From positions 1-64,000 of the IMG/VR virus record IMGVR_UViG_3300029267_003532: a stretch of DNA of 64,000 bases; one strand, given 5' to 3'. Position numbers and translations under genes: made by a program. The stretch comes from a virus. Shown one piece after another: positions 2,912 through 26,411 of this stretch (positions within the stretch are counted from its first letter, which is position 1; the number at the start of each line of letters is the position of its first letter). The notes under the pieces are model-generated. The model ran no database searches, was not told the DNA's origin, and saw only the letters and a program-made list of their open reading frames with translations.

Positions 2912-3312
2912 TTATGATTAGGATCATAATCTGAATGGTTCAGCTTGTACGCCCGCGCCATCGCCGATACATTGACCATCCGTTCGACCCGCGCACTCAA
3001 TCCTGGAAATGGGGCCAGGTGCGCCGGTATATCGGCCATAATCGGCGCGCAGCCCTCGGGTAGCTCCACACAATACCGGTCGAGCGGGCCAGCATCTCGC
3101 GCCCGCGCCATCAGCGACCACGGCGTGCCAGCGGCATCCACGCCGGCGAGATAGACCAGATCCCCGCACTGCGCTTCGCCCGACTCGTAAGCCGAAACAG
3201 GCTGCGCGACCCACGGCTCCATCTCAGACAAATCGTAGACCCCGCCGCAGTACAACGGCTGGCCGACGTATAACCCGGCATAGATTGTGGCGACCGCGAG
3301 CAAGAGATCCAT
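2890..3312 (-). CDS. Small secreted or membrane-anchored protein, unknown
   Basis: About 140 residues. An N-terminal hydrophobic segment (MDLLLAVATIYAGLYV) looks like a signal anchor, followed by a compact domain with three or four Cys (YCGGVYDL, CGDLVYLAG, YCVEL, GCAPI) and ARARDAGPLDRYC. That pattern recalls double-psi beta-barrel (RlpA-like) cell-wall proteins, a weak resemblance. It lies in the lysis-type block after the two-TM protein. The alternative start is GTG at 3321, three codons upstream; neither has a strong ribosome site. Confidence 0.6.
   Translation of the reverse strand: MDLLLAVATIYAGLYVGQPLYCGGVYDLSEMEPWVAQPVSAYESGEAQCGDLVYLAGVDAAGTPWSLMARARDAGPLDRYCVELPEGCAPIMADIPAHLAPFPGLSARVERMVNVSAMARAYKLNHSDYDPNHNWEPRPH
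2917..2936 (+). promoter_or_regulatory. Dispersed 20-bp palindrome, site S1
   Basis: ATTAGGAT-CATA-ATCTGAAT at the start of the ParB-methyltransferase gene. An extra ATTATGAT half-site immediately upstream (2911-2918) makes an inverted pair. Confidence 0.6.
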
Positions 3313-3330
3313 AATCCACACAAAACGAAT

Positions 3331-3358
3331 CTAGCCCGGTTCCACCGAACCAGGCTAG
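3331..3358 (-). terminator. Hairpin terminator after the two-TM protein
   Basis: CTAGCC and GGTTC arms pair with GAACC and GGCTAG around a CACC loop. On the minus strand a T-rich tract (ATTCGTTTTG) follows, as in an intrinsic terminator. Confidence 0.6.
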
Positions 3359-3367
3359 ACACGTTCC

Positions 3368-3883
3368 CTACACCCGATTGAGCCCCCGCGCCACACTCGC
3401 AGAGACCTGGCCCTGCACGCCGACGATCTGTCGCCAGCGATCAACGACAAACTTGACGAATACCTCCTCGGGGACAATCGCCAACGGCGTGTCGGCGATG
3501 AACTCCCGATAGACCTGTCGGGCTGCGTCCTCGACCTGCGACTGAGGAAGCTCTCTGAGCCGGTTGCCGGTCTCTTCCTTCAGCGCATCGAGGACCCATC
3601 CGACGAATTCCAGTATCTGATCGAGCAGCTCTTCGTCTGTATCCCCTCGACGCTTCAGCCACATACGGAATGCCCAGGTTACGATGGCGAGGACGATCAC
3701 TGCGATCAGTAAAATCCAGACCCACGACGCGGACGGGTCGAGCCCCAGCGCGTGTGCACCGGGTTGGGTTTGGCCCAGCGCCAAGGTGCCGCCGATACCG
3801 CTGAGGATAGTGAGAATGAAAGAGAGGACTTCGATCAGAATAGACAACCACTGTGGACGGGAACCGGAGTCAAAGGTATGCAT
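3368..3883 (-). CDS. Two-TM membrane protein, holin-like
   Basis: 171 residues. Two membrane segments (about 13-37 and 52-73) are followed by a charged cytoplasmic region. Size and topology fit a class II-like holin or another lysis/membrane protein, and it is the first gene after the late-type promoter at 3966. AGGAG lies six bases before ATG (3883). An 11-bp palindrome (3911-3937) lies between promoter and gene. The holin call is inferred from topology and position only; no endolysin gene is adjacent. Confidence 0.55.
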   Translation of the reverse strand: MHTFDSGSRPQWLSILIEVLSFILTILSGIGGTLALGQTQPGAHALGLDPSASWVWILLIAVIVLAIVTWAFRMWLKRRGDTDEELLDQILEFVGWVLDALKEETGNRLRELPQSQVEDAARQVYREFIADTPLAIVPEEVFVKFVVDRWRQIVGVQGQVSASVARGLNRV

Positions 3884-3910
3884 GCTGTCTCCTCGTATCC
3901 CCCCACCAAG

Positions 3911-3937
3911 TAAAGCTGACAGAAAATGTCAGCTTTA
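3911..3937. promoter_or_regulatory. 11-bp inverted repeat at a late transcription start
   Basis: TAAAGCTGACA and its complement around GAAAA, immediately downstream of the -10 of the minus-strand promoter at 3966. Position suits an operator or a 5' hairpin. Confidence 0.5.
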
Positions 3938-3988
3938 TTATACCAAAAGGTATAGTCTCAAGTCAAGGGGAAATAGAACGGATTTTCT
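3937..3988 (-). promoter_or_regulatory. Late-type promoter P3966 with upstream box and spacer operator
   Basis: Read on the minus strand: box AGAAAATCCGTTCT (3975-3988), 8 bases, TTGACT (3961-3966), 18 bases, TATAAT (3937-3942). The spacer contains the palindrome TATACC-N4-GGTATA (3939-3954). The same arrangement occurs at 4119 and 63148. It drives the two-TM protein and the genes to its left. Confidence 0.75.
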
Positions 3989-4017
3989 AATCCGGGAAGG
4001 AAATCGAGGGGAAAAAC

Positions 4018-4084
4018 AAAGCGCCCTCGACTGGGGGGGGAGGCCGAGGGCGCTGTCCTTGCCGCCTTGCATGGGGTTCGGACA
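4018..4084 (-). ncRNA. Possible short RNA from promoter P4119
   Basis: P4119 should start transcription near 4083. The first feature downstream is a strong hairpin (4020-4054) followed on the minus strand by TTTGTTTTT, so most transcripts would be about 65 bases. No ORF fits inside. It could be a regulatory RNA or a leader awaiting antitermination. Confidence 0.4.
4020..4054 (-). terminator. Intrinsic terminator
   Basis: AGCGCCCTCG pairs with CGAGGGCGCT around a G-rich loop (GGGGGGGAGG). On the minus strand TTTGTTTTT follows directly. Confidence 0.7.
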
Positions 4085-4089
4085 AGCTC

Positions 4090-4141
4090 AGTATAGCACA
4101 AACGTTCTGCGAAAGTCAAGGCGGATTAGAACGGATTTTCT
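4090..4141 (-). promoter_or_regulatory. Late-type promoter P4119
   Basis: Minus strand: box AGAAAATCCGTTCT (4128-4141), 8 bases, TTGACT (4114-4119), 18 bases, TATACT (4090-4095). Its box is identical to that of P3966, but the spacer operator differs. Confidence 0.72.
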
Positions 4142-4211
4142 AGTTTGGGCGGTTCTGAGTAGGAGGGTTAGTAACGAAAGATCACTCTCCTCGGGCAGTC
4201 TATTTCGTGAT

Positions 4212-4240
4212 TTGACACGGGGCTGTTTCAACGATATACT
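4212..4240 (+). promoter_or_regulatory. Sigma-70-type promoter for the excisionase-like gene
   Basis: TTGACA (4212-4217), 17 bases, TATACT (4235-4240), 42 bases upstream of the ATG at 4283. Confidence 0.75.
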
Positions 4241-4282
4241 GTGTCTAATGTGTCTTATATGCCTACCTATGGGGTACAGTAA

Positions 4283-4486
4283 ATGTCAAGCATCCTTACT
4301 GCAGGAGAAGCTGCGAAACGGCTAGGTGTTACGCAACGAACCATAGCGCGGTGGATCAAAAAGGGACGGTTTCCAAACGCCTACAAGCTGGATCCCACCG
4401 AACGAACATCTCCCTACCGTATTCCCGTGACCGACATCGTCGCATTCGAGGAGACGCGAAGGACCAGCATCGCCGTAACCGGCTAG
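4283..4486 (+). CDS. Excisionase-like / MerR-type helix-turn-helix protein
   Basis: 67 residues. A single winged-helix DNA-binding domain (TAGEAAKRLGVTQRTIARWIKKGRFPNA, residues 5-32, split by the recognition helix) with a wing YRIPVTDIVAF is typical of Xis and MerR-like helper proteins. It has its own promoter, converges on the integrase and lies next to the attachment site, so a directionality factor for integration/excision is the natural inference. A transcription regulator is the alternative. Confidence 0.75.
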   Translation: MSSILTAGEAAKRLGVTQRTIARWIKKGRFPNAYKLDPTERTSPYRIPVTDIVAFEETRRTSIAVTG

Positions 4487-4501
4487 TCTCTCCCAAAAAG
4501 A

Positions 4502-4533
4502 AAGGTCACCAGTGCGATAACACTGATGACCTT
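4502..4533 (-). terminator. Intrinsic terminator beyond attP
   Basis: AAGGTCA(C)CAGTG pairs with CACTG(A)TGACCTT around CGATAA. On the minus strand CTTTCTTTTT follows. It lies downstream of the integrase and the tRNA 3' half. A similar hairpin occurs at 17,667-17,692. Confidence 0.7.
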
Positions 4534-4615
4534 AACGCTAGACGCCCAATCTCTCACCCAGAGATATTGCACCTTAACAATTGAATTGTGAAGGCTCTTT
4601 GTTGCGTCTTCGCTG

Positions 4616-4657
4616 TGAGCCACATAGGACTCGAACCTATAACCCGCTGATTAAGAG
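4616..4657 (-). other. Putative attP core: 3' half of tRNA-Lys (CTT)
   Basis: On the minus strand these 42 bases read from anticodon loop CTCTTAA through the 3' anticodon strand TCAGC, variable loop, T-arm (ATAGG-TTCGAGT-CCTAT), acceptor strand GTGGCTC and discriminator A. CCA is not encoded. On the 5' side the sequence does not pair with TCAGC, so there is no complete tRNA. This is what a phage att site looks like when attB is a tRNA 3' end with crossover at the anticodon loop. It lies 63 bases from the integrase stop. Confidence 0.75.
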
Positions 4658-4720
4658 CAACCAGGTGACGTGGTGATACGTATCAACGGGTCATAGCATC
4701 CGACAACTGTCGTACCGGAC

Positions 4721-5581
4721 TCAACTCGAAATGCCGATCCCAAACCTCATCATTCCGAGGATCAGCCGCAGCGTCTGCAGATCCCCGCCCTTACTCACAT
4801 ACAAGCGGGCAAACGTATGTCGCCAAATGTGGCACATCCGTGGCTTACACGCCACGCCGGCCAGCGCCGCCCGTCGGCGCAAAAGCTGATTGAGCCCATT
4901 CGGCGTCAGCCCTCGGCATGTCAACGTCGCCCGGCCACCCACGGCGACAAACACCGTATCGGCGGCCTCGGGGCGAACCTCCAGCCAGGCCGAGAGAACG
5001 TTCGCCGTCTCTGTCCAAAACGGCACCGTGCGATCGGCGTGCGACTTGGAGCCAGCCGCTCGGACTACCACCAGGCCGCGATCCTCGCCGAGATGAACGT
5101 CTCCTGGCTCCAGGCGCACCAGCTCGCCGGCGCGCAGACCCGTATCGAGCAGCAGCATCATGATCGCCCGATCGCGGAGACCGACTGGACTGTCGTTGCA
5201 CGTGTCCAGCAGCGCCTGGACCTCGTCCAGCGACCACGTCTCGGGCAACTGTCGGTCCGGCTTGATCCGGGGCCGGCCAGCCATCGGGTCAACGTCGAGC
5301 CAGCGCTCAGCAACGCAGAATCGAGTAAACGCGCGGATCGCGCGATCATACGCGGCCACCGTGCCGGAGCGAATCTCAGAGCGCTCGACCCGGGCCTGCA
5401 AGTGCGCGAAAAACACTCGCAGGCTGGAACGAGTCAGGCTCGACACGTCACCGGCGCCCTGTTTCTCCAGGAACGCGATCAGGCTGCCGAGTTGCGTCTC
5501 GTAGAACCGGATCGTCGCCGGCCGTCGACCATACGATCGGCGGTCCAATATAAACTCTGTCAGTGCGGCCTGAAGCTCCAT
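4721..5581 (-). CDS. Tyrosine integrase with frameshifted C-terminus
   Basis: 286 residues from ATG 5581 (GGAG six bases upstream). It has a SAM-like core-binding N-terminus and a catalytic domain with TGLRAGEL (Arg I), a beta-hairpin Lys region and HIWRHTFA (His-x-x-Arg). After LRLILG the reading continues as MMRFGIGISS and stops, with no LGH motif or catalytic Tyr. One extra base after this glycine would restore LGH and open the frame to about 4683 (HDEVWDRHFELSP), yet even there a Phe lies about where Tyr is expected. Either a pseudogene, an inactive relative or a sequencing error. It should recombine at the adjacent tRNA-Lys site. Confidence 0.85.
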   Translation of the reverse strand: MELQAALTEFILDRRSYGRRPATIRFYETQLGSLIAFLEKQGAGDVSSLTRSSLRVFFAHLQARVERSEIRSGTVAAYDRAIRAFTRFCVAERWLDVDPMAGRPRIKPDRQLPETWSLDEVQALLDTCNDSPVGLRDRAIMMLLLDTGLRAGELVRLEPGDVHLGEDRGLVVVRAAGSKSHADRTVPFWTETANVLSAWLEVRPEAADTVFVAVGGRATLTCRGLTPNGLNQLLRRRAALAGVACKPRMCHIWRHTFARLYVSKGGDLQTLRLILGMMRFGIGISS

Positions 5582-5621
5582 AGGGTTCTCCAATGGAATC
5601 AAGCCGCCTTGCAGTAGGGCA

Positions 5622-5663
5622 GGCGCGGCGGGGTACGCTTCCCAGGGCAACCCCCGTCGCGCC
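5622..5663. terminator. Hairpin with shared loop, between divergent genes
   Basis: A GC-rich 12-13 bp stem (GGCGCG...CGCGCC) closes the loop ACGCTTCCCAGGGCA. The same loop sits on a different stem at 6909-6943. It lies upstream of the integrase and before the gene at 5719; no T-tract, so its role is uncertain. Confidence 0.45.
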
Positions 5664-5718
5664 AACCATCTTATCATAGATCCAGATCAGGCGCAAACGC
5701 CACACGAAAGGAACGACC

Positions 5719-5910
5719 GTGGAAGACGAAGCCGAGTATGTAACCGAGGAAGACCCCGTTGAAGCAGCGCTCAAGCAACTTGGGATCGAAAGCGGGGCCT
5801 ATGCCGACAAGTTGCGCATCCTAGCCGAAAAACACTACAGATCCATAGCAAACGAACTGAGGTGGATCATCGACCAGGTCTACGGCGAGCAAATCATCGC
5901 CGAGGGCTAG
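5719..5910 (+). CDS. Small acidic helical protein, unknown
   Basis: 63 residues starting at GTG with AAAGGA seven bases upstream. The composition is acidic and helical (DEAEYVTEEDPVEAALKQLG, then YRSIANELRWIIDQVYGEQ), with no recognised motif. It lies between integrase and repressor in the lysogeny region, on the strand opposite both. A small regulatory or host-interaction protein is possible; the family is not recognised. Confidence 0.55.
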   Translation: MEDEAEYVTEEDPVEAALKQLGIESGAYADKLRILAEKHYRSIANELRWIIDQVYGEQIIAEG

Positions 5911-6057
5911 CCTTACCCGATCACCCGGCACCCAACGCGCGGCGCGGGGCGTACCATTGCCCAGCGCCGCCGGCGCCCCCGAAACCAACGACGCGAAACT
6001 ACGAGCCCGCACGCATACACTCGACCAACTAGCACCGACCACAGGGGGAAATACCGG

Positions 6058-6585
6058 CTAATCTGAATCCACCGACAGCGATCCATCCTCGCTCCTCTCC
6101 CCCTCGTCGCCGCGCAGCCGGCGCATCAGATCAAATACTCGAGCCTGATCTTCCGGCGACAACTGGTCCAGATCCTCGACCATGCTGTACGCCAACTGTT
6201 CTTTGAGCGTGCGCGGCCCAGGTTCGCCGTCCACTTCGTCAGGATACTGTGGCCCCACCTTGGCAGCTAGGCTCTGAACAGTGGACACAATCGCATCTTG
6301 AACGGGGCCTGCTAAACGGCGAAACCACGTCAACAGATTTCGTTCTTTTTCCTCCACTGACGGCATTGAGGGCAGCGGGGGCAGCAATCCAGCGCGGCGC
6401 ATCACCGCATCAGGAGGCAAGTCGAGCGCTTTCGCGATATTGGAGCAGAAATCAAAACTGACCTCGCGCTGACCACCCAGGATCATATAGACGGTAGACT
6501 CACTTATGTCGGCCCGGCGTGCCAACTCGCGCCGAGTCCAACCCCGTTTTCCTAGTTCGGCCAACAGCCAGTTGTTGAAATCCAT
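6058..6585 (-). CDS. CI-like XRE family repressor
   Basis: 175 residues. Residues 1-60 form a Cro/CI helix-turn-helix (RRELARRADISESTVYMILG). A helical middle and an acidic tail follow, with no Ser/Lys peptidase domain, so it is not a self-cleaving LexA-type repressor. It diverges from an RHH gene across a short region holding a consensus promoter and a perfect TGTGAGA-N3-TCTCACA palindrome. This is the arrangement of a lysogeny switch, so it is the best candidate for the main phage repressor and possibly for the dispersed palindromes. Confidence 0.8.
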   Translation of the reverse strand: MDFNNWLLAELGKRGWTRRELARRADISESTVYMILGGQREVSFDFCSNIAKALDLPPDAVMRRAGLLPPLPSMPSVEEKERNLLTWFRRLAGPVQDAIVSTVQSLAAKVGPQYPDEVDGEPGPRTLKEQLAYSMVEDLDQLSPEDQARVFDLMRRLRGDEGERSEDGSLSVDSD

Positions 6586-6608
6586 ACATCACCGTCTATA
6601 TTTCACGC

Positions 6609-6637
6609 TTGACACATCTTTTTTTGTGTGATATAAT
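6609..6637 (+). promoter_or_regulatory. Consensus sigma-70 promoter of the lysogeny switch
   Basis: TTGACA (6609-6614), 17 bases, TATAAT (6632-6637), a perfect consensus match. It drives the RHH gene at 6681 away from the repressor. Confidence 0.85.
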
Positions 6638-6646
6638 CATCTTTAG

Positions 6647-6663
6647 TGTGAGACATTCTCACA
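6647..6663. promoter_or_regulatory. Operator-like palindrome
   Basis: TGTGAGA-CAT-TCTCACA lies just downstream of the -10 at 6632-6637, around the transcription start. It is suited to repression by the CI-like or RHH protein. Confidence 0.65.
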
Positions 6664-6680
6664 AGACAGGAGAGGCAAGA

Positions 6681-6899
6681 ATGTCACAAGTCGAGCCCGA
6701 CAACATCAAGCCAAGATCCACCATTATACTGCAACCCATTGATCGCGACATTGCAGCCACTTTGATGAGTCGCTATGGTACAAATCTGTCTGCGACAATT
6801 CGAATGGCTTTACGCGACAAGGCTCGGGCGCTTGGACTACAAATTCCCGGACTACAGATCGACCCGCAATCCGCGCCACCTAGCGTCGCCTTGCGATAA
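6681..6899 (+). CDS. Ribbon-helix-helix DNA-binding protein
   Basis: 72 residues from ATG 6681 (AGGAGA eight bases upstream). STIILQPIDRD forms the ribbon, and IAATLMSRYGTNLSATIRMA the two helices of a CopG/Arc-type fold; the C-terminus is Pro-rich. It is divergent from the CI-like repressor and driven by the strongest promoter of the window, hence a plausible Cro/antirepressor counterpart. An inverted repeat with 17-base loop follows the stop. Confidence 0.65.
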   Translation: MSQVEPDNIKPRSTIILQPIDRDIAATLMSRYGTNLSATIRMALRDKARALGLQIPGLQIDPQSAPPSVALR

Positions 6900-6908
6900 G
6901 GGCACGCG

Positions 6909-6943
6909 GGAGAGAGTACGCTTCCCAGGGCAGAACTCTCTCC
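6909..6943 (+). terminator. Hairpin after the RHH gene
   Basis: GGAGAGAGT pairs with ACTCTCTCC around the loop ACGCTTCCCAGGGCAGA, the same loop as at 5635-5649. There is no clear T-tract, so termination is only probable. Confidence 0.45.
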
Positions 6944-7008
6944 TCTGCTCGCTCCCTAGTATATCACAACTGTAAAGATTTTGTCCACTCTAGTGTAGAG
7001 ACAGGGGG

Positions 7009-7028
7009 ATTCAAATTATGATCACAAC
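7009..7028 (-). promoter_or_regulatory. Dispersed 20-bp palindrome, site S2
   Basis: Minus strand GTTGTGAT-CATA-ATTTGAAT. It covers the ATG of the ParM-like gene and is the only copy in reverse orientation. Confidence 0.55.
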
Positions 7029-8016
7029 CGGAAACACACATAAACCAGACCAGCACATCATCGTAGCCGCTGACATCGGCTATGGCTATACCAAGGCAAC
7101 GTCCATCATCGACGGCGAGACCCTGACCGTCGCGTTTCCCTCGGCCTATGCCCAGGTCGCCCGCCAACTCCACGACGGCAGCAAGCGCAAGCGGATCCAC
7201 ACCTGGGACAACGACTGGTACTTTGGCAAAGACGCGCTCATCTATTCAAAGTCTCCCATCACCAGTCGCGATCGCAACCGCCCACAGGAGATGATCGAGA
7301 TACTCTTCCTCGGCCTGCTCTCCGAGCTTGGGATCTATCATGGTGAGATCGAGCTGCACACCGCCCTGCCCGTCGAATGGCTGGGCGATGCAGATACCCT
7401 GCGCGGCCTGCTCACCGGCCGGCACATCGGGCAGCGCCTTGATCAGAACGACAAGCGCATCGACGTCACCGTAGGTCGTCCCCTGGGCAACGAGCGCGAG
7501 CGTAGCGGAGTCTTTTTCTACCCTCAGCCTCTGGCCTCCTTTCTCAGCCGGGCCGCCCACGACGACACGCTCTGGGAAGACTGGTCCACCGTACTGATCG
7601 TCGACGTTGGCACTGGCACCTTTAACGAGTGCTTGATCGTGGCAGGGGAGTGGATCGACGAGCGCGCGACTTCCAAGCCCCACGGCCTGGGCGTCGTCCT
7701 CGAGGCCGCCCTCCAGGACCAGGAAGCGCAGACTGGACGCCGTGACCTGCTGCACATCGCGAGGGGAAAGCTCTGGGCGCGCAACCGCGAACTGCTCGAC
7801 CTGGCGCAACCGCACATCGACGCTCTGGCCGAAGACGTCATCCAGGCTGCCGCTGACATCGCCGAAAACATCAGCCTGCAGATGGTCATCCTCACCGGTG
7901 GAGGCGCGCACTTTATCCAGTCACACGTCCGCGCCCGTTTCGGAGACATCGTCAGTGTTTCGCAGTATCCCGAACTCGACAACGTCAAGGGCCTGCTCGA
8001 CGCGGCCACAGAATAG
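7018..8016 (+). CDS. ParM/StbA-like actin ATPase
   Basis: 332 residues with the three nucleotide-binding motifs of actin-fold plasmid segregation proteins: ADIGYGYTK (18-26, phosphate 1), LIVDVGTGTFN (about 197-207, phosphate 2) and VILTGGGAHF (about 291-300, adenosine). Such proteins polymerise with ATP and push apart plasmid copies bound by an adaptor on a centromere. The next gene is a small RHH protein and the gap holds two palindromes, matching a parM-parC-parR order. The locus therefore suggests extrachromosomal maintenance. A dispersed palindrome overlaps its start. Confidence 0.85.
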   Translation: MITTGNTHKPDQHIIVAADIGYGYTKATSIIDGETLTVAFPSAYAQVARQLHDGSKRKRIHTWDNDWYFGKDALIYSKSPITSRDRNRPQEMIEILFLGLLSELGIYHGEIELHTALPVEWLGDADTLRGLLTGRHIGQRLDQNDKRIDVTVGRPLGNERERSGVFFYPQPLASFLSRAAHDDTLWEDWSTVLIVDVGTGTFNECLIVAGEWIDERATSKPHGLGVVLEAALQDQEAQTGRRDLLHIARGKLWARNRELLDLAQPHIDALAEDVIQAAADIAENISLQMVILTGGGAHFIQSHVRARFGDIVSVSQYPELDNVKGLLDAATE

Positions 8017-8017
8017 A

Positions 8018-8078
8018 ACCCCATCGAGTGTATACAATGGTATACACTCGATGGGGTGAATGTATACAATGGTATACA
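8018..8078. promoter_or_regulatory. Palindromic operator/centromere-like sites
   Basis: A perfect inverted repeat with 18-bp arms (8018-8035 and 8040-8057) around AATG is followed by a second copy of its core, TGTATAC-AATG-GTATACA (8061-8078). The cores are 31 bp apart, about three helical turns. They separate the ParM-like gene from the RHH gene and fit a ParR-type binding site with autoregulation. Confidence 0.7.
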
Positions 8079-8079
8079 A

Positions 8080-8343
8080 ATGAAACCCATCTCGGCGCGC
8101 ATCACAGACAACCTATATCAGGCCATCCAGGACCAGGTAGACGCCGGCACGTTTGCCTCTCGCTCGCAGGCCGTCGCCTATTATCTGCAGCGCGGTTTCG
8201 ACGCCGATGCCAATAACCACGAGGCACTGCGCCAGATCGTCCGCGAGGAACTGGCCCGCGTCCAACTCCAGCCGGCAGGACAGCCGGCACAAAAGACCGC
8301 TAACCCCAAGCGCGCCGCCATGCTAAACAAAGTTGTCCGATGA
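8080..8343 (+). CDS. ParR-like ribbon-helix-helix protein
   Basis: 87 residues. KPISARITDNLYQAIQDQV and the ASRSQAVAYYLQRGFD segment form a ribbon-helix-helix domain; the C-terminal half is charged with a KRAAML motif near the end. It follows the actin-like ATPase and two palindromes, so the adaptor that couples DNA to the filament is the likely role. The ATG at 8080 lacks a clear ribosome site; GTG at 8056, eight codons upstream, is the alternative and would lie inside the palindromes. Its stop overlaps the next start. Confidence 0.65.
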   Translation: MKPISARITDNLYQAIQDQVDAGTFASRSQAVAYYLQRGFDADANNHEALRQIVREELARVQLQPAGQPAQKTANPKRAAMLNKVVR

Positions 8344-8495
8344 ACGACTACAAAACTGAGATCGGCTGGACAATCGCATTACTTACCCTGATCCTGGGCC
8401 TGCCCGCCTACTACTGGGCGCGGCAGAAACTCGCGGACTACATCCAGCGCCGCAACGCGCCGCCGATCCGCTACAAAGGGAGGAGCACAAAATGA
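8340..8495 (+). CDS. Small single-span membrane protein
   Basis: 51 residues. The ATG at 8340 overlaps the stop of the RHH gene, and its stop overlaps the ATG of the FtsK-like gene (ATGA in both cases). One membrane helix (WTIALLTLILGLPAYYW) is followed by a basic tail (IQRRNAPPIRYKGRSTK). The tight coupling supports a real gene working with the translocase, perhaps as a membrane anchor. Confidence 0.6.
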   Translation: MNDYKTEIGWTIALLTLILGLPAYYWARQKLADYIQRRNAPPIRYKGRSTK

Positions 8496-9835
8496 AAACG
8501 CGACAAGCAGCACCTGCCGCCGATGGGCTCCGTCCGTTTGTCCTCAATTGGGAACGAAGCATCTGGCAAACTATGCGCCGCCAATCCATTCCCTATGCCA
8601 TCGTCGATAAAGCGCGCGCCGCGCAGACGCTGACTTTCCGCCTGCGCCTGGCCGATGCCGGACATCTCAAAAAAGCGCTCGGTATGTCCGAGCAGATCGC
8701 CCTCGACCTGGGCGTCAAGCGCGTGCGCATTGCGCGCAACCTGGGCTACCTGGACGTCGAGATCGGCCTACCACAGGCCTACCACCAAAAACTGAGCGTC
8801 TCGGCACTGCGCCGCAAAGGCGGTACCTGGGTCGCCCTCGGACAGACCTCGATCGGCACCCCGGTCTACGTCAACCTGGCCGGCAACCGCACCTGTCACG
8901 CCCTCGTCACCGGGGCCACCGGCAGCGGCAAAACCGTCGCTGAGCGTTTGATCGCCTGGACCCTCTCCACAGACAACCAGCCCGACCAGGTCCAACTGAT
9001 CCTGATCGACGGCGCGAAAAAGGGCGCGGCCTGGTGGGGCTTCGAGCACGACGCGCACCTCGCGCACCCGATCATTGTCGACAGCAACGAGGCGGTGGGC
9101 GCCTTGGCCTGGGCCGTGGCCGAGCTCGATCGGCGAATGGCCCAGGCTCGCAAAGGCCCGCGCTTGTTTGTGATCATTGACGAGATCCGCGCCCTTCTCA
9201 ACGTCGCCGGCGACCAGGTCGCCCAGGCCGTCGAGTACATTGCCAGCATTGGCCGCGAGTTCGGCGTACACATCATCGTCGCTACCCAGCACGCCCTCAC
9301 CGACGCACTAGGAGGCAGTATCGCCAAAGCGAACCTCGTCATGCGCCTGACCGGTTGGGTGGCCGATGCGACCGCGGCTCACGTCGCAACCGGGATCAAC
9401 AAATCCGGGGCCGAGCACCTCCAGGGCAACGGCGACTTTTTGCTCGTCGTGGCCGGGCAGGCGCACCGCCTCCAGATGGCAATCGTCGAGAACCGCGAAC
9501 TGGGCCGGCTGGCGCGCTGTGAGACCGTGCCCCGCCTCGAGCTGGACCATAACATTGACCGCGTGCTCCAAGTCGCCAAGCCAGCCTCGCCGCGCAAAGA
9601 TCTCGATACCGAGGCCGAGGCCGTCGCTTATGCTTTGGCAACTGAATGTGGCGCGAATGAACTGCGTGCGCGCTATGGCCCGATGGGTACGACCCGCGCG
9701 CGTCGTATCCGTGACTTTGCCCGTACCCTGCGCCGCGTTCTGCCCGGCCTCGGCTACATCTACCCCCTACCACTGACTACCATATCATCTGAAACCGCCC
9801 GCCAGGCCAAAATTCCAGCATCACTGGTAGGGTAG
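8492..9835 (+). CDS. FtsK/SpoIIIE-like DNA translocase
   Basis: 447 residues. The motor domain carries Walker A GATGSGKT (141-148) and Walker B LFVIIDE (225-231), plus IVATQH as in FtsK-HerA ATPases. A C-terminal helical region (about 375-420) may be a winged helix. No membrane segments are present, unlike cellular FtsK. Plasmids and plasmid-like phages use such ATPases in replication, transfer or dimer resolution. It is placed in an operon with partition-type and small membrane proteins, so DNA movement at the membrane is inferred. Confidence 0.85.
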   Translation: MKTRQAAPAADGLRPFVLNWERSIWQTMRRQSIPYAIVDKARAAQTLTFRLRLADAGHLKKALGMSEQIALDLGVKRVRIARNLGYLDVEIGLPQAYHQKLSVSALRRKGGTWVALGQTSIGTPVYVNLAGNRTCHALVTGATGSGKTVAERLIAWTLSTDNQPDQVQLILIDGAKKGAAWWGFEHDAHLAHPIIVDSNEAVGALAWAVAELDRRMAQARKGPRLFVIIDEIRALLNVAGDQVAQAVEYIASIGREFGVHIIVATQHALTDALGGSIAKANLVMRLTGWVADATAAHVATGINKSGAEHLQGNGDFLLVVAGQAHRLQMAIVENRELGRLARCETVPRLELDHNIDRVLQVAKPASPRKDLDTEAEAVAYALATECGANELRARYGPMGTTRARRIRDFARTLRRVLPGLGYIYPLPLTTISSETARQAKIPASLVG

Positions 9836-19710: not shown

Positions 19711-20424
19711 ATGACAAAACTACTGATCACCAAACTGCAAAAGCGGCCCGATGGCAACGTCGATCTCTTTGGCCGCGGTCATCGCTACAAAGACACGACC
19801 CTATTTGACGTGTCCGATCTCTTTGAGGTGGGCATTGACCCCGCCGATCTCCAGGTCGGTGTCGAGACGCCATGCCGGTTTTATGCGCACTGTGTCGCGT
19901 CTTCAAAACTGAACAAGAGCGGAAATCCTTACCTAAACGTCGAATACCTGGAGGCTGTTTCCAACGGCAACGGCAACGGCAACGGCCACCAGGCCGCGCC
20001 CGCCGGCGAACTGAACAGCGCCATTTTGGATGAGCTGCGCGCTGTTCACGGCGAACTGACTCAAATGCGCCGGCTGCTCAACCGTGCGTTTGTGGGGCAG
20101 GTCATCGACCCGCCGCTCGTAACGGATGACGACCCAACCGAACCGCCCACGGGTGAGGGAGATAACGACCTCGACGATCCTGACGACGTCCCACGCCCAC
20201 CTGCTACCAGTGCCCAGCCACTCAGCGACGATCAGGCGCGACGCAACTTTTCCAGCCTGGCCGGGCCGGCGATCCGCGAGGGCCAAGTCACGTCGGAGGA
20301 GGTCAATGAACTGGTCAAAGGTGCTATCGCCACAGGTTGGCGCGACGCGCTCGTCGAACTGCAGGCGCTGATTGCGCAGGCTGAGAGTGAGCAGGAACGC
20401 GAACTCGTTGCAGTTTATCCCTAA
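19711..20424 (+). CDS. Possible ssDNA-binding/recombination accessory protein
   Basis: 237 residues. The N-terminus (1-80) has an OB-like beta pattern (LLITKLQKRPDGNVDLFGRG; GVETPCRFYAHCVASSKL). An (NG)n linker (about 87-95) precedes a helix, an acidic Asp-rich region (TDDDPTEPPTGEGDNDLDDP) and a C-terminal helical domain. That layout resembles phage single-strand binding proteins, but no signature motif is clear. Its stop lies inside element C2. Confidence 0.55.
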   Translation: MTKLLITKLQKRPDGNVDLFGRGHRYKDTTLFDVSDLFEVGIDPADLQVGVETPCRFYAHCVASSKLNKSGNPYLNVEYLEAVSNGNGNGNGHQAAPAGELNSAILDELRAVHGELTQMRRLLNRAFVGQVIDPPLVTDDDPTEPPTGEGDNDLDDPDDVPRPPATSAQPLSDDQARRNFSSLAGPAIREGQVTSEEVNELVKGAIATGWRDALVELQALIAQAESEQERELVAVYP

Positions 20425-20448
20425 TTTTCATCGCCCTCATTTGTTATA
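20419..20448 (+). promoter_or_regulatory. Phage promoter-like element C2
   Basis: CCCTAATTT (20419-20427), 12 bases, TTTGTTATA (20440-20448), overlapping the upstream stop codon. A transcript would begin just before the closed RNA at 20460. Confidence 0.65.
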
Positions 20449-20916: not shown

Positions 20917-21552
20917 ATGAAACTTCAAGTTGCACACATCAATCCATCCTCCTACGTCGACGGCCCCGGCCAGCGTGCCGTCCTCTACCTGGCCGGCTGC
21001 CCGATCCGCTGCCCTGGCTGCCAGTCCCCGTATCTCTGGGACGAGAATGCCGGCGCCGCAACGGACGTCGACCAAGTGGCCGCCTGCCTGCTCGACACCG
21101 GTCTGCCGATCACCATCTCCGGCGGCGAGCCCTTCGCCCAGGCACCCGCCGTGGCCGAGTTACTCGTCGATCTGCGCATCCAGCAGCCCGACCTGCACAT
21201 CATCGTCTACACCGGCTTTGTGGTCGAAGACATTCTCGACGCCATAGCTCCCGCGATGCCCGAAGCGTGGGTTATCCTCCACGCCGCCAACGTCCTCGTC
21301 GACGGTCCGTTCCAACCCGAGGACGACCACGACCAGGTGCAGTGGCGCGGCTCCAGTAACCAGCGTCCCATCGACCTGCGCGCGACGTGGGAGCGAGCCT
21401 GGCGTTCCCTGGCCCTACTGGACTGGGATGCGCAGACCCTGACGATCACCGCAGACGGCGACCTGCTCGGCGCCGCCGGCACGATGGACGACCTATTCGG
21501 ATCACCAGCCCTGGTCCCCACGCGTATGTGCGGCCAGGTCAGAACAATCTAG
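20917..21552 (+). CDS. NrdG-like radical SAM activase
   Basis: 211 residues. YVDGPGQRAVLYLAGCPIRC and CPGCQSPYLWD carry CxxxCxxC (C28, C32, C35), exactly the pattern of anaerobic ribonucleotide reductase activating proteins. ISGGEPFAQ (about 68-76) is the SAM-binding GGE motif. NrdG makes the glycyl radical on NrdD, but no NrdD is in this window, so it may serve the host enzyme or an unseen gene. The C-terminal 60 residues are extra relative to NrdG. Confidence 0.8.
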   Translation: MKLQVAHINPSSYVDGPGQRAVLYLAGCPIRCPGCQSPYLWDENAGAATDVDQVAACLLDTGLPITISGGEPFAQAPAVAELLVDLRIQQPDLHIIVYTGFVVEDILDAIAPAMPEAWVILHAANVLVDGPFQPEDDHDQVQWRGSSNQRPIDLRATWERAWRSLALLDWDAQTLTITADGDLLGAAGTMDDLFGSPALVPTRMCGQVRTI

Positions 21553-21620: not shown

Positions 21621-21650
21621 CCCTAATTTTGGGGCCGCTCATTTGTTATA
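21621..21650 (+). promoter_or_regulatory. Phage promoter-like element C3
   Basis: CCCTAATTT (21621-21629), 12 bases, TTTGTTATA (21642-21650), 60 bases before the GTG at 21710. Confidence 0.65.
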
Positions 21651-21709: not shown

Positions 21710-23008
21710 GTGAGCGTCAAAATCGAGGACAACCCGATGGACACAGCCCAAGTTATTGCCGAAGCCAAGAGCATTATCAACCAGCGCCGCCGCGAGGCCG
21801 CCGAGCGGATGGGGGTGGACGAAAGCAAGGTCCAAACGCACCGCATCGAGCTACGTCGGCTCCGCGAGGCCGGTCTCCTGATTGACCTCGACATCCACGG
21901 CGTCTCGATGTTCAGCGTTCGCACGACCTACGCAGAGCTGGGCATCGGCGCAGAGGACGTCCGTGCCAAGCGGATGCGGGCAGGTACCAAGGACCTCTTT
22001 CCAGAATACAGCAAAAAGCTGCGCTCCCTCGAGGGCCGCGCGCGCCAGAACCTCGCCAAGCATTCACACTCGATCCCGGCCTTCGGCCAGTACCGGTGGC
22101 TTCCGTGGACAGCTTACCAGGCTTACTCGGACAAACACACCCAGATACTCGCCGAGCTCGATGCGACCAAGGCGGAATTGCTCGCCAAGTACGACGAGTT
22201 GCGCGAGGAAAACCGCGCCTACTTTGAGCAGGTCGCCCTGCGCGCCTGGCAGGACCTGCGCGCCGGATTCTCATATCCGGACAGCGGCATGATCGTTACC
22301 ACCGATCATACCGAGTTTGGCCCCGGCGAAGAGGGCAAGTTCGTCGAATACGTGGTTCAAAAAGTCCTTGGCCGGATGCCTCTCCCGGACGAAATCCGCG
22401 ACGGCGTGCGCATCGACTACAAGACCTCGATTCTCTACTCCGAGGCCGAGATCGCCGCCGACCAGTCCGCGCTCGAACAGGCTGAGGCCGAGTACGCGCA
22501 GGCCCGGTTTCAGCACGCGCAAGCCGAACAGGCTGCCTTCGACGTCCACCTCCAAGAGCGCGAGGCCGAGGGCCAAGTCCAAGCTCGCATCGCTGCCTAT
22601 CGCCGGGCCGAGCTCGAGCACGCGCGCCAACAGCTCGCCGAGATGGGCAGCCCCATCCAGGACGCCCTCGACGGCCTGCGTGCCAACTTGTACGACGCTG
22701 TACGCACGCTGCTGGCCGGCCTGCGCAAGAACACCACGTTTCGCGGCAAAGCCGGCTCCAAGGCCGCCGACCTGTATGCGTACTGGCACAAGTTGAACGG
22801 GGGACTGCTCCACGATGCCGACTTGGAGCAAGCCCTGGCCGCCTTGGACGGCGAGATGAAGTCCTACCAGGTCGCCGACAAAGACGCCCGGCAGACGCAG
22901 ATCGGCGACATCGAGACCCAACTCGCCGAGATCGCCGCCCTGACCGCCGAATCCGCGCGCAAGATTCGCAGCGAGTCGGGCAGCAGAGCTTCGGTCCTGG
23001 AATTGTAG
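21710..23008 (+). CDS. Coiled-coil protein of the AAA+/WGR cluster
   Basis: 432 residues from GTG 21710 (AGGAGA upstream). The first 110 residues are basic and helical; 115-150 hold an aromatic patch (IPAFGQYRWLPWTAYQAY); 150-320 are long heptad-rich coiled coils; the last third is helical. It ends in GSRASVLEL, the tail shared with two other proteins of this cluster. First gene behind element C3, so it is likely a structural scaffold for the AAA+ complex. Family not recognised. Confidence 0.7.
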   Translation: MSVKIEDNPMDTAQVIAEAKSIINQRRREAAERMGVDESKVQTHRIELRRLREAGLLIDLDIHGVSMFSVRTTYAELGIGAEDVRAKRMRAGTKDLFPEYSKKLRSLEGRARQNLAKHSHSIPAFGQYRWLPWTAYQAYSDKHTQILAELDATKAELLAKYDELREENRAYFEQVALRAWQDLRAGFSYPDSGMIVTTDHTEFGPGEEGKFVEYVVQKVLGRMPLPDEIRDGVRIDYKTSILYSEAEIAADQSALEQAEAEYAQARFQHAQAEQAAFDVHLQEREAEGQVQARIAAYRRAELEHARQQLAEMGSPIQDALDGLRANLYDAVRTLLAGLRKNTTFRGKAGSKAADLYAYWHKLNGGLLHDADLEQALAALDGEMKSYQVADKDARQTQIGDIETQLAEIAALTAESARKIRSESGSRASVLEL

Positions 23009-23010
23009 CG

Positions 23011-23331
23011 ATGATGATCGTATTACGCAACACGACCAGCCGCAAGGACGCGGTGTACATCATTGAGGTGGACGAGGACAACCAAAAGGTGGCCGGTTGG
23101 TGGGGGCGCTGGGACACGTACCAAGCCCACGGCCTGGCTGGCCTGCGCAGTCAGATGAAATGGGACGGGCCATCCTATCAGAACGCGGCGGACAAGCTGC
23201 TGCGCCAAAAGCTAGAAAAAGGATATGTCCCCGTCGATCAACTGCCGGCATCTGTGTCGACGCCCGCGGCGCCCGATCCTAACCCGCCATCGCCCCGCCC
23301 GCGTTCACGGGCGGCAATGCTGGAGCTATAG
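23011..23331 (+). CDS. WGR-domain-like protein
   Basis: 106 residues. VYIIEVDEDNQKVAGWWGRW followed by a helix and ADKLLRQKLEKGY is the pattern of a WGR domain, a small nucleic-acid-associated fold known from PARPs and bacterial AAA+-linked systems. A Pro-rich linker leads to RSRAAMLEL at the C-terminus, the same tail as in the genes at 21710 and 24147. It starts two bases after the coiled-coil gene. Likely a DNA/RNA-sensing or adaptor subunit. Confidence 0.7.
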   Translation: MMIVLRNTTSRKDAVYIIEVDEDNQKVAGWWGRWDTYQAHGLAGLRSQMKWDGPSYQNAADKLLRQKLEKGYVPVDQLPASVSTPAAPDPNPPSPRPRSRAAMLEL

Positions 23332-23877
23332 ATGTCAAACCTGGTACAGCTTGATTTCCTGACAATGATCCACTTGCCTCCTGTATGGACAGCGCCAATT
23401 CCCAGTGGATACGGACATTGGTGCTGTCCTCATTGTCACGATGCCGCCAGGGGATTTGAAGCCCCTTTATCGTTCCCTGCCACAAACAATCGCCAAATAG
23501 GTCAGTGCCGAACCTGTAACTATGAACATCACTTCAGCCTGCTTTATGGTCAAACTCCAAACGGGTATCCTGAGACGCGCATGGATTTAGAGCAGGCCCA
23601 TATCGCAGCTCACATTCGAACCGGGTTCCCCAAGATTTGCCCGGCTGGTCACGCGAATCCCGTTTGTATGGCAAATTGTGAGTCGTGTCCGCACCATCAA
23701 GCTGACGCGCGCTTGCACTGGCGCTGTAACCATCCGGCTTATCAAAAAGCGATTGGTGTACATTGGTGTCTAGGTTGTGGTATGGAACTTGGCCCTTGGG
23801 CAGAGGCTCATAATTGGCATTACTGCGGTGGGCCAACCAACCAATGCATGAGAGATTGGGAGATAACAAATGGATGA
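23332..23877 (+). CDS. Multi-zinc-finger protein
   Basis: 181 residues immediately after the WGR gene. Several Cys/His clusters: WCCPHCH (about 31-37), CRTCNYEHH, CPAGH, CMANCESCPHH, CLGCG and YCGG, enough for three or four zinc sites. This suggests nucleic-acid or protein binding. Overlaps the next gene by eight bases. No named family recognised. Confidence 0.65.
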   Translation: MSNLVQLDFLTMIHLPPVWTAPIPSGYGHWCCPHCHDAARGFEAPLSFPATNNRQIGQCRTCNYEHHFSLLYGQTPNGYPETRMDLEQAHIAAHIRTGFPKICPAGHANPVCMANCESCPHHQADARLHWRCNHPAYQKAIGVHWCLGCGMELGPWAEAHNWHYCGGPTNQCMRDWEITNG

Positions 23878-24070
23878 ACGCACTCGCAACCGATTTGCCG
23901 CCAAGTTTGGTCTGCCTGCTGGACAGGTCCGAACGTTCGACGCGTTGACCGCGCACGAAAAAGAGGACGTGCGCCGCTACTACTCCCTCTACAATGCACG
24001 ACACTATGTCTACGCCATCAAGCGCGCTGGCGGATTGGTCGTGAAACGGTTCCGGCTCAATACCGCTTAG
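23870..24070 (+). CDS. Small basic protein, unknown
   Basis: 66 residues overlapping the zinc-finger gene. RNRFAAKFGLPAGQVRTFDA and EDVRRYYSLYNARHYVYAIK are helical and rich in Arg and Tyr. Last gene of the C3 unit before site S8 and element C4. Function unknown. Confidence 0.55.
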   Translation: MDERTRNRFAAKFGLPAGQVRTFDALTAHEKEDVRRYYSLYNARHYVYAIKRAGGLVVKRFRLNTA

Positions 24071-24085
24071 GATCATAATCCAAAT
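24066..24085 (+). promoter_or_regulatory. Dispersed 20-bp palindrome, site S8
   Basis: CTTAGGAT-CATA-ATCCAAAT, four bases upstream of element C4. Confidence 0.62.
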
Positions 24086-24089
24086 CTAT

Positions 24090-24119
24090 CCCTAATTTCT
24101 AGCCTTCCCGTTTGTTATA
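24090..24119 (+). promoter_or_regulatory. Phage promoter-like element C4
   Basis: CCCTAATTT (24090-24098), 12 bases, TTTGTTATA (24111-24119), 28 bases before the ATG at 24147. Confidence 0.68.
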
Positions 24120-24146
24120 TAGGTACAACTACAGGAGGGACAAACG

Positions 24147-25721
24147 ATGAACGTGAACAAACTGACCGCCATTCAACAAGCTGACGTCTTTATCCGCGCT
24201 CGCTACCCTGGGCTCTTTATCCGCTCGCAAGAGGAAGCGCGGGTCGAATCGGCCATTCGCGGCCTACTCGCGACCGGCAAGCACGCCCACAAGGAGGTCT
24301 TGACCTGGACCATCAGCCGGGGTGTGCGCCTGGCCGACGCGCCGGCAGAGGAATACGGGCCAACCGATCCGATCAGCGCCCTGCAGTGGTTCGCCGGTTA
24401 TGGCGTCACCGAGGAAAAGCCCGCCGGCACACCGGCGGTCGCCATCTTCAAGGACCTCGATCCCTATTTCCAAGACCCCCGCGTTGTTCGCGCTCTGCGC
24501 GACCTGATCGCCGACATCACCAGCACCCAGCGCACGCTGATCGTCATTTCCCCAACACCCAACGTGCCCGAATCCTGCAAGCGCCAGGTTGCCATGATCG
24601 ACTGGGCGCTTCCCACGGTCGACGAGCTGGCCGGCATGCTGGGCGACTTTATCGCCGACCTGCCTGACCGCGTACAATGCGACCTGAACGGCGACAAGGA
24701 GCAGGTTGCCAAGGCACTCTGCGGCCTCACCTGGTTTCAGGCCCAGTCGGTACTCGCCACCGCCGTGATTGCCACCGGCAAGCTGGACGGGGCTGCAATC
24801 GAGTTCATCATTTCGGAAAAAGCGCGCCTTGTCCGTGAATCCGGGCTCCTCGAGTTCTACCTGCCCGACAACCTGCCCGACATCGGCGGCCTGGATGAAC
24901 TCAAAACCTACATCTCGCGTAGGCGCCGCTCTTTCACGGACAAGGCCCGCGACTATGGCGTACCCACGCCCAAGGGCTTGCTCCTTGTCGGCGTGCCCGG
25001 CTGCGGCAAATCGCTGGCCTGCAAGTCACTCTCCAAGCTCTGGCGGCTGCCCCTGGTCCGCCTCGACGTCGGCGCGCTAATGGGCTCCCTGGTCGGCCAG
25101 TCAGAGGCCAACCTCCGCCAGGCGCTGCAAGTCGCCGAGTCATCCAGCCCCTGTATCCTCTGGCTGGACGAGATTGAAAAGGGCCTCGCCGGCGTCAAGT
25201 CGAGTGGGCAAACCGATGGCGGGACCACCGCCCGCGTTTTTGGCGCGCTGCTCACCTGGCTCCAGGAAAAGACCGCGCCGGTTTACATGGTCGCAACCAG
25301 CAACGACATCAGCGCGCTGCCGGCAGAGCTGCTGCGCGCCGGACGTTTCGACGAGACCTTTTTCGTAGACCTGCCCAACACGCAGGAACGCCGAGAGATT
25401 TGGACCATCCACGTCGCCAAAGCCGGCCGCAATCCGGCCAACTTTGACCTCGAGGCCTTGGTCCAGGCCAGCGACGGCTATACAGGTGCAGAGATCGAAG
25501 CCGCAGTCGGCGACGCTTTGATCGCCGGTTTTGACCAGGATCGCGAGATCACTACCGGCGACCTGGTCACAGCCATTGCGGGCCGCGTGCCCCTGACCGA
25601 GACGATGGACACGCAGATCAACGCCCTGCGCAAATGGGCTGCCCGGCGCGCCAAGCCGGCCAGCAGCGCCCAAGCCGGCCAGGCCGAGTCCAAGAGCCGC
25701 GCCGCGACACTCGACTTATAG
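24147..25721 (+). CDS. Ycf46-like AAA+ ATPase
   Basis: 524 residues. Residues 1-235 form a degenerate N-terminal domain as in Ycf46 (AVAIFKDLDPYFQDPRVVRA; TLIVISPTPNVP). The AAA+ core has Walker A GVPGCGKS (282-289), Walker B CILWLDEIEK (336-345), sensor VATSND (382-387) and the Arg finger in RAGRFD. It ends in KSRAATLDL, the shared cluster tail. The DUF1257 and DUF2997 genes follow, the usual partners of Ycf46-type ATPases in bacteria and phages. Biochemical role unknown; remodelling of a protein complex is the general AAA+ activity. Confidence 0.85.
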   Translation: MNVNKLTAIQQADVFIRARYPGLFIRSQEEARVESAIRGLLATGKHAHKEVLTWTISRGVRLADAPAEEYGPTDPISALQWFAGYGVTEEKPAGTPAVAIFKDLDPYFQDPRVVRALRDLIADITSTQRTLIVISPTPNVPESCKRQVAMIDWALPTVDELAGMLGDFIADLPDRVQCDLNGDKEQVAKALCGLTWFQAQSVLATAVIATGKLDGAAIEFIISEKARLVRESGLLEFYLPDNLPDIGGLDELKTYISRRRRSFTDKARDYGVPTPKGLLLVGVPGCGKSLACKSLSKLWRLPLVRLDVGALMGSLVGQSEANLRQALQVAESSSPCILWLDEIEKGLAGVKSSGQTDGGTTARVFGALLTWLQEKTAPVYMVATSNDISALPAELLRAGRFDETFFVDLPNTQERREIWTIHVAKAGRNPANFDLEALVQASDGYTGAEIEAAVGDALIAGFDQDREITTGDLVTAIAGRVPLTETMDTQINALRKWAARRAKPASSAQAGQAESKSRAATLDL

Positions 25722-25725
25722 AAAT

Positions 25726-25755
25726 CCCTAATTTTTGGTCTGCCCATTTGTTATA
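25726..25755 (+). promoter_or_regulatory. Phage promoter-like element C5
   Basis: CCCTAATTT (25726-25734), 12 bases, TTTGTTATA (25747-25755), 28 bases before GTG 25783. In this copy GGTCTGCCCA and TGGGCAGACC flank the second block as an inverted repeat. Confidence 0.68.
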
Positions 25756-25782
25756 TGGGCAGACCAAACCAAGGAGGATAAC

Positions 25783-26190
25783 GTGAGCAAATATCGGAAA
25801 CTCAAGACCAAATTCACCAGCCGCGTGCACCTGCGCGAGGCGCTCCAAGCCACCGGCTTGCCTTTCGAAGAGGCCCGGCCTGGTCAGGCCCTGACCCTCA
25901 ACGGATACGGCGGGCAGCGGCGCGAAGCGACCTTTGTAGTCCGCAAGCGGGCGCTGGGCGCACGATACGGCGACTTTGGCTGGCAGTGGGATCCCGCGAC
26001 CAAGGGTTTTACTCAGATTGAGGATGATCTCGACGCCGGCCATCTGCCCGTTCAGCAGAACCTGCAGGCCATCAAGCGCGAGTATGCCTACGCTGCGACC
26101 GTGACACAGGCGAGGGTAAAGGGCTACCAGATTCGTCGCATCGACCTGCCGTCAGGCGAGATTCAAATCCAGGTTACAGGGAGGATCTAA
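25783..26190 (+). CDS. DUF1257 (Ycf35-like) protein
   Basis: 135 residues from GTG 25783 (AAGGAGG upstream). The N-terminal KYRKLKTKFTSRVHLREALQ, the NGYGGQRREATFVVR strand and the REYAYAATVTQARVKGYQI helix match DUF1257/Ycf35, found next to Ycf46-like ATPases. Function unknown in all hosts. Overlaps the DUF2997 start by one base. Confidence 0.78.
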   Translation: MSKYRKLKTKFTSRVHLREALQATGLPFEEARPGQALTLNGYGGQRREATFVVRKRALGARYGDFGWQWDPATKGFTQIEDDLDAGHLPVQQNLQAIKREYAYAATVTQARVKGYQIRRIDLPSGEIQIQVTGRI

Positions 26191-26411
26191 TGCAGGCATT
26201 CACATTGACGATCACCATCAGCGTTGACGGCGAGACCGTTGTGGGCGAGGTCTCTGGGATCAAAGGCAAGCGTTGCTCTGACATCGCGGCACTGCTCGAC
26301 AAAGTCGGCGACGAGACCGAACATCGGCACACTGCGGACTATGACGCAGTCGAGCCGGTTCAGATCAATGCCGGCATCGGCAGCACCTTGTCCTTGGATC
26401 GTAACGGATAG
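26190..26411 (+). CDS. DUF2997-like protein
   Basis: 73 residues. ISVDGETVVGEVSGIKGKRC followed by SDIAALLDKVGDETEHR matches the short DUF2997 pattern (a beta-hairpin, GxKGxxC and a helix) encoded beside DUF1257 genes. Probably a small subunit of the AAA+ complex. Confidence 0.72.
   Translation: MQAFTLTITISVDGETVVGEVSGIKGKRCSDIAALLDKVGDETEHRHTADYDAVEPVQINAGIGSTLSLDRNG

Follow-up and report, generated by a model that had tools for sequence, protein, structure and literature searches.

A conserved C-terminal tail on non-homologous proteins of a phage AAA+ ATPase cluster as a candidate docking motif

The window analysed here is a 64,000-nucleotide stretch of viral DNA (positions 1 to 64,000 of the IMG/VR record IMGVR_UViG_3300029267_003532, a phage record of 79,955 bases). 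At 21710–26411 it carries a gene cluster built around a Ycf46-like AAA+ ATPase, in which three proteins, namely a helical coiled-coil protein, a WGR-like protein and the ATPase itself, end in similar nine-residue tails. The genes and elements of the cluster, with the adjoining radical-SAM gene, are as follows.

20419..20448, + strand: promoter-like element CCCTAATTT-N12-TTTGTTATA, 5' of the radical-SAM side of the block (exact match)
20917..21552, + strand: radical-SAM protein of the NrdG-like minimal type (CxxxCxxC; PF13353, 3.9e-28), without the tail
21621..21650, + strand: promoter-like element 5' of the DUF3150-like gene (exact match)
21710..23008, + strand: divergent DUF3150-like helical (coiled-coil) protein, 432 aa (iterative family search; AlphaFold2 model)
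22979..23005, + strand: C-terminal tail GSRASVLEL of the DUF3150-like protein (predicted local distance difference test score, pLDDT, <50 in the AlphaFold2 model)
23011..23331, + strand: WGR-like protein, 106 aa (sub-threshold PF05406 match; parallel with the WGR protein of phage L050)
23302..23328, + strand: C-terminal tail RSRAAMLEL of the WGR-like protein
23332..23877, + strand: Cys-rich (zinc-finger-like) protein without the tail, seen only in the window and in L002
23870..24070, + strand: small protein without the tail, seen only in the window and in L002
24090..24119, + strand: promoter-like element 5' of the ATPase gene (exact match)
24147..25721, + strand: Cdc48/p97-like tandem AAA+ ATPase of the Ycf46 type (Pfam, PHROG, AlphaFold2 and Foldseek)
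25692..25718, + strand: C-terminal tail KSRAATLDL of the ATPase (ATPase residues 510–524, pLDDT <50)
25726..25755, + strand: promoter-like element 5' of the DUF1257 gene (exact match)
25783..26190, + strand: DUF1257 (Ycf35-like) protein without the tail (PF06868, 2.6e-9)
26190..26411, + strand: DUF2997 protein without the tail (PF11211, 1.1e-5), with one invariant Cys (GxxGxxC) by alignment

The three tails are identical to one another at 5–6 of 9 amino acids and at only 1–2 of 9 third codon positions, and the bodies of the proteins that carry them are not homologous. Since the codons differ almost everywhere and the bodies are unrelated, the tails are alike as protein and are not duplicated DNA, and the exact sequences and coordinates given for them in the first-pass annotation, which had placed the match at the protein level, were confirmed. 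When the 5050 gene pairs of the 80-kb record were compared, equally high tail scores came otherwise only from two pairs of true paralogues, and the third-best tail pair reached the observed score in 0 of 300 random resamplings. A tail scan of the window and of the remaining 16 kb of the record gave no further convincing tail-bearer. The tails are disordered in the AlphaFold2 models, the last nine residues of the DUF3150-like protein being among its least confident.

Loci with the same ATPase were collected from other genomes (80 viral and 80 chromosomal, plus plasmid loci); gene calling was greedy, so the gene counts below are approximate. The tail consensus in this set is [S/T/N]-R-[F/A]-x-x-[L/I/V]-[E/D]-[L/I/V/F]-COOH, with a shorter form R-x-[L/I]-[D/E]-[L/I/V]. 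The motif patterns were refined during inspection, and acidic tails of the EEDEEL type, which inflate scores, were left out of similarity scoring. ATPases of many phages and plasmids have a variable linker that leads to a terminal R-x-[LIM]-[DE]-[LIVF]; elsewhere the ATPase ends in LRQMEL (Anaerolineales), ARRIEL (an archaeon) or YQR[LM]EF (cyanobacterial Ycf46-type proteins). A strict pattern matches 23 of 70 non-redundant ATPases (about 0.8 expected); by family, the tail is on 13 of 19 members of the DUF3150-like family (0.27 expected) and 10 of 11 SWIM zinc-finger proteins (0.14 expected), and is near-absent from the other companions (DUF1257, 0/91; DUF2997, 1/43; radical SAM, 0/16; p107, 0/32). 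Among the 70 non-redundant loci, the tail is found on 23 of 544 same-strand neighbours of the ATPase, compared with 2.7 expected (P = 2e-14), and on 5 of 628 distant or opposite-strand genes. In seven phage records scanned over their whole or nearly whole length, hardly any tail matches lie outside the ATPase cluster. The tail is thus conserved in homologous clusters of phages, plasmids and bacterial chromosomes. Of the two genes that the first-pass annotation expected to accompany the ATPase, the coiled-coil gene does so, but the WGR gene is rare, seen in the window phage and in L050. We found no literature on a tail shared by WGR, SWIM and ATPase proteins.

The slot filled by the WGR-like protein in the window phage is taken in other phages by a SWIM zinc-finger protein that retains the tail: SRFSFLE (L024), SRFSLVKL (L039), NRFAAIEV (L025), SRTAFIEF (L017), GRVIELD (L011), KRIVEL (L010) and KRRVLDL (L090). 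Phage L050 encodes a clear WGR protein (2.6e-10) with the tail NRALEL. Tails are also present on helix-hairpin-helix (HHH_3) proteins, namely ERNIDI/L in L032, NERTIDL in L173 and SRRLDL in the Arthrobacter plasmid L177, as well as on the SLOG proteins of L005 and L010. Tails are shared within plasmid L177 (GGRQIDF and SRRLDL), and in the Paenibacillus plasmid L179 the tails SRVIHF and KRVIRL adjoin an ATPase ending in YRRISH. These replacements point to modularity: the connector tail stays constant, and the DNA-binding-type modules (WGR, SWIM, HHH) that bear it are swapped.

If one receptor reads the tails of a given genome, non-homologous partners in that genome are predicted to carry the same tail variant. 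We therefore compared tail similarity within genomes with that of permuted pairs, using families set by hidden Markov models, which makes these tests independent of the motif patterns. With kinship ignored, tails proved more alike within genomes for DUF3150-like and SWIM proteins (n = 9, P = 5e-5), for DUF3150-like proteins and ATPases (n = 19, P = 5e-5), and for SWIM proteins and ATPases (n = 11, P = 0.009).

The assignment of the ATPase to the Ycf46-like AAA+ proteins was borne out by matches to PF00004 (5.6e-28) and phrog_8638 (2.3e-138) and by its fold. Its sequence has the classical AAA features of Walker A/B motifs and Arg fingers (Walker A GVPGCGKS, WLDEIEK, and conserved R397/R400), and a Foldseek search with the AlphaFold2 model (pLDDT 84) retrieved p97/Cdc48 D1–D2 over about 570 columns (E = 4e-23; template modelling score 0.67–0.70). 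As modelled, the protein is a tandem AAA+ ATPase comprising a degenerate D1 (approximately residues 1–235, with no intact Walker A) and a D2 with an intact Walker A that is predicted to be active. Closer assignments were rejected: it is not Cdc48/p97 proper (TIGR01243, 97.6 bits against a cut-off of 802.65; no N domain), not a member of a MoxR-VWA system (AAA_5, 15.7 against 22 bits; none of the cluster proteins matches VWA) and not the anti-phage ATPase IetA (NF042959, 93 against 510 bits).

The coiled-coil protein encoded at 21710–23008 has no Pfam match of its own, including to PF11348 (DUF3150); an iterative search groups it with proteins of L091, L004, L011, L037 and L005 that match PF11348 at 1e-24 to 2e-11, and by this sequence grouping it is probably a member of a divergent DUF3150 family. 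Its AlphaFold2 model is a helical bundle (pLDDT 79) for which Foldseek returned generic helical bundles only, none with E < 0.001, and no literature on DUF3150 was found. The 106-aa protein matches the WGR profile PF05406 weakly over residues 6–76 (E = 0.12), at 13 bits where 22 are needed; the WGR label of the first-pass annotation is plausible, with a profile match that stays sub-threshold. The two genes named 3' of the ATPase stand as annotated, with both profile matches above cut-off: DUF1257 (PF06868, 37.7 against 22.2 bits) and DUF2997 (PF11211, 25.7 against 24.1 bits). The DUF1257 gene probably starts at GTG 25783, preceded by a Shine-Dalgarno sequence AGGAGG at 25773–25778, and not at TTG 25735, from which the reading frame is open. 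Searches of PDB sequences with the two profiles gave nothing credible. Single reading frames at 7185–7766 of L019 and 9410–10051 of L027 match both profiles, which suggests natural fusions of the two families. In about 32 phages (the D280 loci, L034 and L043–L093), DUF1257/DUF2997 is replaced by a family of 250–330 aa, D280, and these phages also carry a small Cys/His-rich protein ending in GxHSHDGGxTW. Comparisons gave no support for homology of D280 with DUF1257 or of p107 with DUF2997, and for homology of D280 with DUF3150 hhalign was suggestive only, at a probability of 4%.

The radical-SAM gene at 20917–21552 was left out of the first-pass annotation; 18 loci, some of them on bacterial chromosomes, have relatives of it beside the same ATPase. 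It belongs to the module in many related loci and should be counted with it. Its product matches TIGR02491 (NrdG) at 8.2e-30; the score of 103.8 bits lies below the equivalog cut-off of 126.1 and NrdD is absent from the record, so that an NrdG activase was rejected.

We consider it probable that the tail serves as a docking motif at the C terminus, through which the DUF3150-like subunit and interchangeable modules join a p97-like ATPase machine. A docking peptide had been proposed in the first-pass annotation, and this idea is supported by a tail that is conserved, disordered, nearly confined to the cluster and co-varying between non-homologous partners. Judged from sequence, its recurrence suggests a plug-in tag that collects different proteins on one machine, and it would bind one receptor. 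In such a machine, the motif would sit on a flexible linker and be common to the subunits of one p97-like AAA+ assembly, tethering to it the DUF3150-like helical protein and, likewise, a small swappable module that binds nucleic acid or protein (WGR; elsewhere SWIM, helix-hairpin-helix or SLOG). The ATPase, bearing the same tail, would then remodel or unfold a nucleoprotein or protein client chosen by the module. The output would be ATP-driven remodelling of clients, and the nature of the modules suggests that these clients are nucleoproteins.

As for the receptor, the ATPase ring seems most likely, its one site being contested by the tails of partners and those of adjacent subunits, and DUF1257/DUF2997 come second. 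The ATPase is the most economical choice since it is itself the common element across tail-bearing records. The zinc-finger protein, one of the common partners envisaged in the first-pass annotation, was dropped as a general receptor because of its restriction to the window and L002. DUF1257 and DUF2997, the other partners envisaged there, cannot be obligate receptors, because tail-bearing phages exist without both: the ATPase (VRRVLDI) and SWIM protein (KRRVLDL) of L090 share RRVLD[IL] in a record from which both genes are absent, the complete phage Smooch has no DUF1257, and neither gene was detected in 15 D280-type records with tail-bearing ATPases, which are perhaps incomplete and in which very divergent members could escape detection.

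Several observations weigh against a shared docking motif read by the ATPase. In the AlphaFold2 model of the monomer, the tail is not docked on the ATPase, for which reason the ring as receptor is a guess. The permutation tests are uncorrected for phylogeny, and in L024, L039 and L025 the tails of the partners are closer to each other than to that of the ATPase, a pattern that two sites or a separate hub could produce. D280-type phages keep the ATPase tail and mostly lack it on the downstream partner (present in 3/31), and some ATPases have acidic tails or none. Finally, jumbo phages carry a tail of the same class on dozens of proteins outside the ATPase cluster.

Among these, the record L089 (350,866 bp; L204–L221) has 32 of 503 genes ending in tails of the [RK]F[DE][IM][LM]D[LI] type, compared with 0.04 expected, and the 32 proteins fall into 26 groups with no detectable mutual similarity. 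The 219-kb phage L069 (L222–L232) has such tails on 12 of 288 genes. The pattern is of the same 8-mer class (SRFxxLDL), and many of the tailed genes lie around split genes for the alpha subunit of DNA polymerase III (Pol III). Both phages possess the ATPase, with its own tail KDLDL, and DUF1257; a related 298-kb phage encodes the ATPase too, together with a protein closely related to one of the tail-bearers. We tentatively entertain a transferable C-terminal address tag, by which any protein gaining [S]RFxxL[DE]L would be drawn to the p97-like ATPase machine, a few subunits in small phages and dozens of proteins in some jumbo phages. Should the tag of the jumbo phages belong to the same system, viruses would have an address code for proteins that spans the genome.

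The evidence was also weighed against other explanations. DUF1257, together with DUF2997, might form a receptor hub where both the ATPase and its partners are held by their tails, in the way that PUB/PUL cofactors bind the disordered C-terminal tail of p97 (PMC5389986). The two families are almost never tailed themselves, though they accompany many tail-bearers, and the frames matching both count in favour of this reading; their absence from the D280-type records, read with the limits given above, and the examples of Smooch and L090 make this arrangement doubtful. Alternatively, the tail could mark clients or act as a degron, the ATPase gripping disordered C-termini, its own included, for unfolding or recycling with no stable tether. 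A disordered C-terminal position and a p97-like unfoldase fold are what such a tag would have, and the 32 tailed proteins of the 350-kb phage, mostly small and unrelated, look more like clients than subunits. But pore engagement would need less than a specific 8-mer whose pattern is fixed and which co-varies between partners, and window-type phages have the tail almost solely in one operon-like cluster, so we regard a client tag as unlikely.

Crowding of jumbo-phage tail-bearers around the split Pol III alpha genes would agree with binding to a hub of host or phage origin that is not part of the cluster, for instance the sliding clamp, and with localisation of jumbo-phage accessory proteins to replication sites. 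The bacterial sliding-clamp-binding consensus is QL(S/D)LF; RFDILDL is an acidic-hydrophobic C-terminus that we take to resemble known clamp-binding C-termini loosely. Tail alignments do not satisfy the consensus, as there is no Gln and most phage tails lack a terminal aromatic residue, and the jumbo-phage Pol III alpha proteins end in TIDIFG or ADIFG, without such a tail. A sliding-clamp motif was therefore rejected, and since the motif is also nearly confined to the ATPase cluster in window-type phages, an outside hub in general appears quite improbable. Only nine residues are shared per protein, which leaves room in principle for chance or for a 3' segment that was recently duplicated among the genes; the few shared third positions and unrelated bodies argue against this, and the neighbour enrichment, family counts and co-variation refute it, leaving its probability close to negligible.

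The proposed docking arrangement has partial counterparts in known systems. Cdc48/p97 (VCP) has the same tandem AAA fold and a disordered C-terminal tail with conserved final residues, whereas the phage ATPase lacks the N domain, its D1 has no Walker A, and its tail recurs on non-ATPase partners; no PUB/PUL match turned up in Pfam scans of the cluster proteins. In the ClpX system, the XB peptide of SspB (PMC12373786) likewise is a short linker-borne peptide tethering an adaptor to an AAA+ ring, docking being predicted in the phage case; the ATPase class is different, and the phage tail is found on several unrelated proteins and on the ATPase itself. In cyanobacteria, the genes for Ycf46, Ycf35 (DUF1257), DUF2997 and a ferredoxin form a set (PMC4284462) that has the ATPase family and the companions in common with the phage cluster; Ycf46-type proteins of chromosomes end in YQR[LM]EF. 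To this set phages add the tailed DUF3150-like protein, WGR or SWIM modules and often the radical-SAM gene. The E. coli yeh locus (MoxR ATPase YehL, VWA protein YehP, SWIM protein YehQ and WGR-family protein YehF) also combines an AAA+ protein with SWIM and WGR partners, but its ATPase is of the MoxR type with a VWA partner and there is no shared tail. For Ycf46, Ycf35/DUF1257 and DUF2997, whose conservation extends over cyanobacteria, plastids, plasmids and phages, we found no established mechanism. The shared tail offers a handle on the assembly and membership of this machine, with new subunits or clients findable by sequence alone.

Some further features of the collected loci should be noted. 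In another phage group (L036, L038, L041, L044 and L064), ATPases end in acidic EEDEEL-type tails, and among the acidic-tail records checked (L038, L041, L044 and two relatives) all except L041 lack DUF1257/DUF2997. In the Pseudanabaena plasmid L175, genes for GrpE, an Hsp70-family protein, DUF1257, DUF2997 and the ATPase lie close together at 2589–8533, and a chaperone link of this type is also seen near Chloroflexi loci. The Treponema plasmid L176 has the ATPase and a radical-SAM-like 4Fe-4S gene within a contractile injection system-like locus.

The promoter elements that the first-pass annotation had placed in control of the block exist as sequence: CCCTAATTT-N12-TTTGTTATA has five exact copies in the window (10430, 20419, 21621, 24090 and 25726), compared with 0 expected, and the last three are located at the ATPase block. 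Elsewhere in the record, a two-gene cassette encoding a 108-aa protein and a convergent ParB/methyltransferase-like protein occurs twice, at 1208–2911 of the window and at 76789–78474 of the record, near opposite record ends and with high protein identity between the copies.

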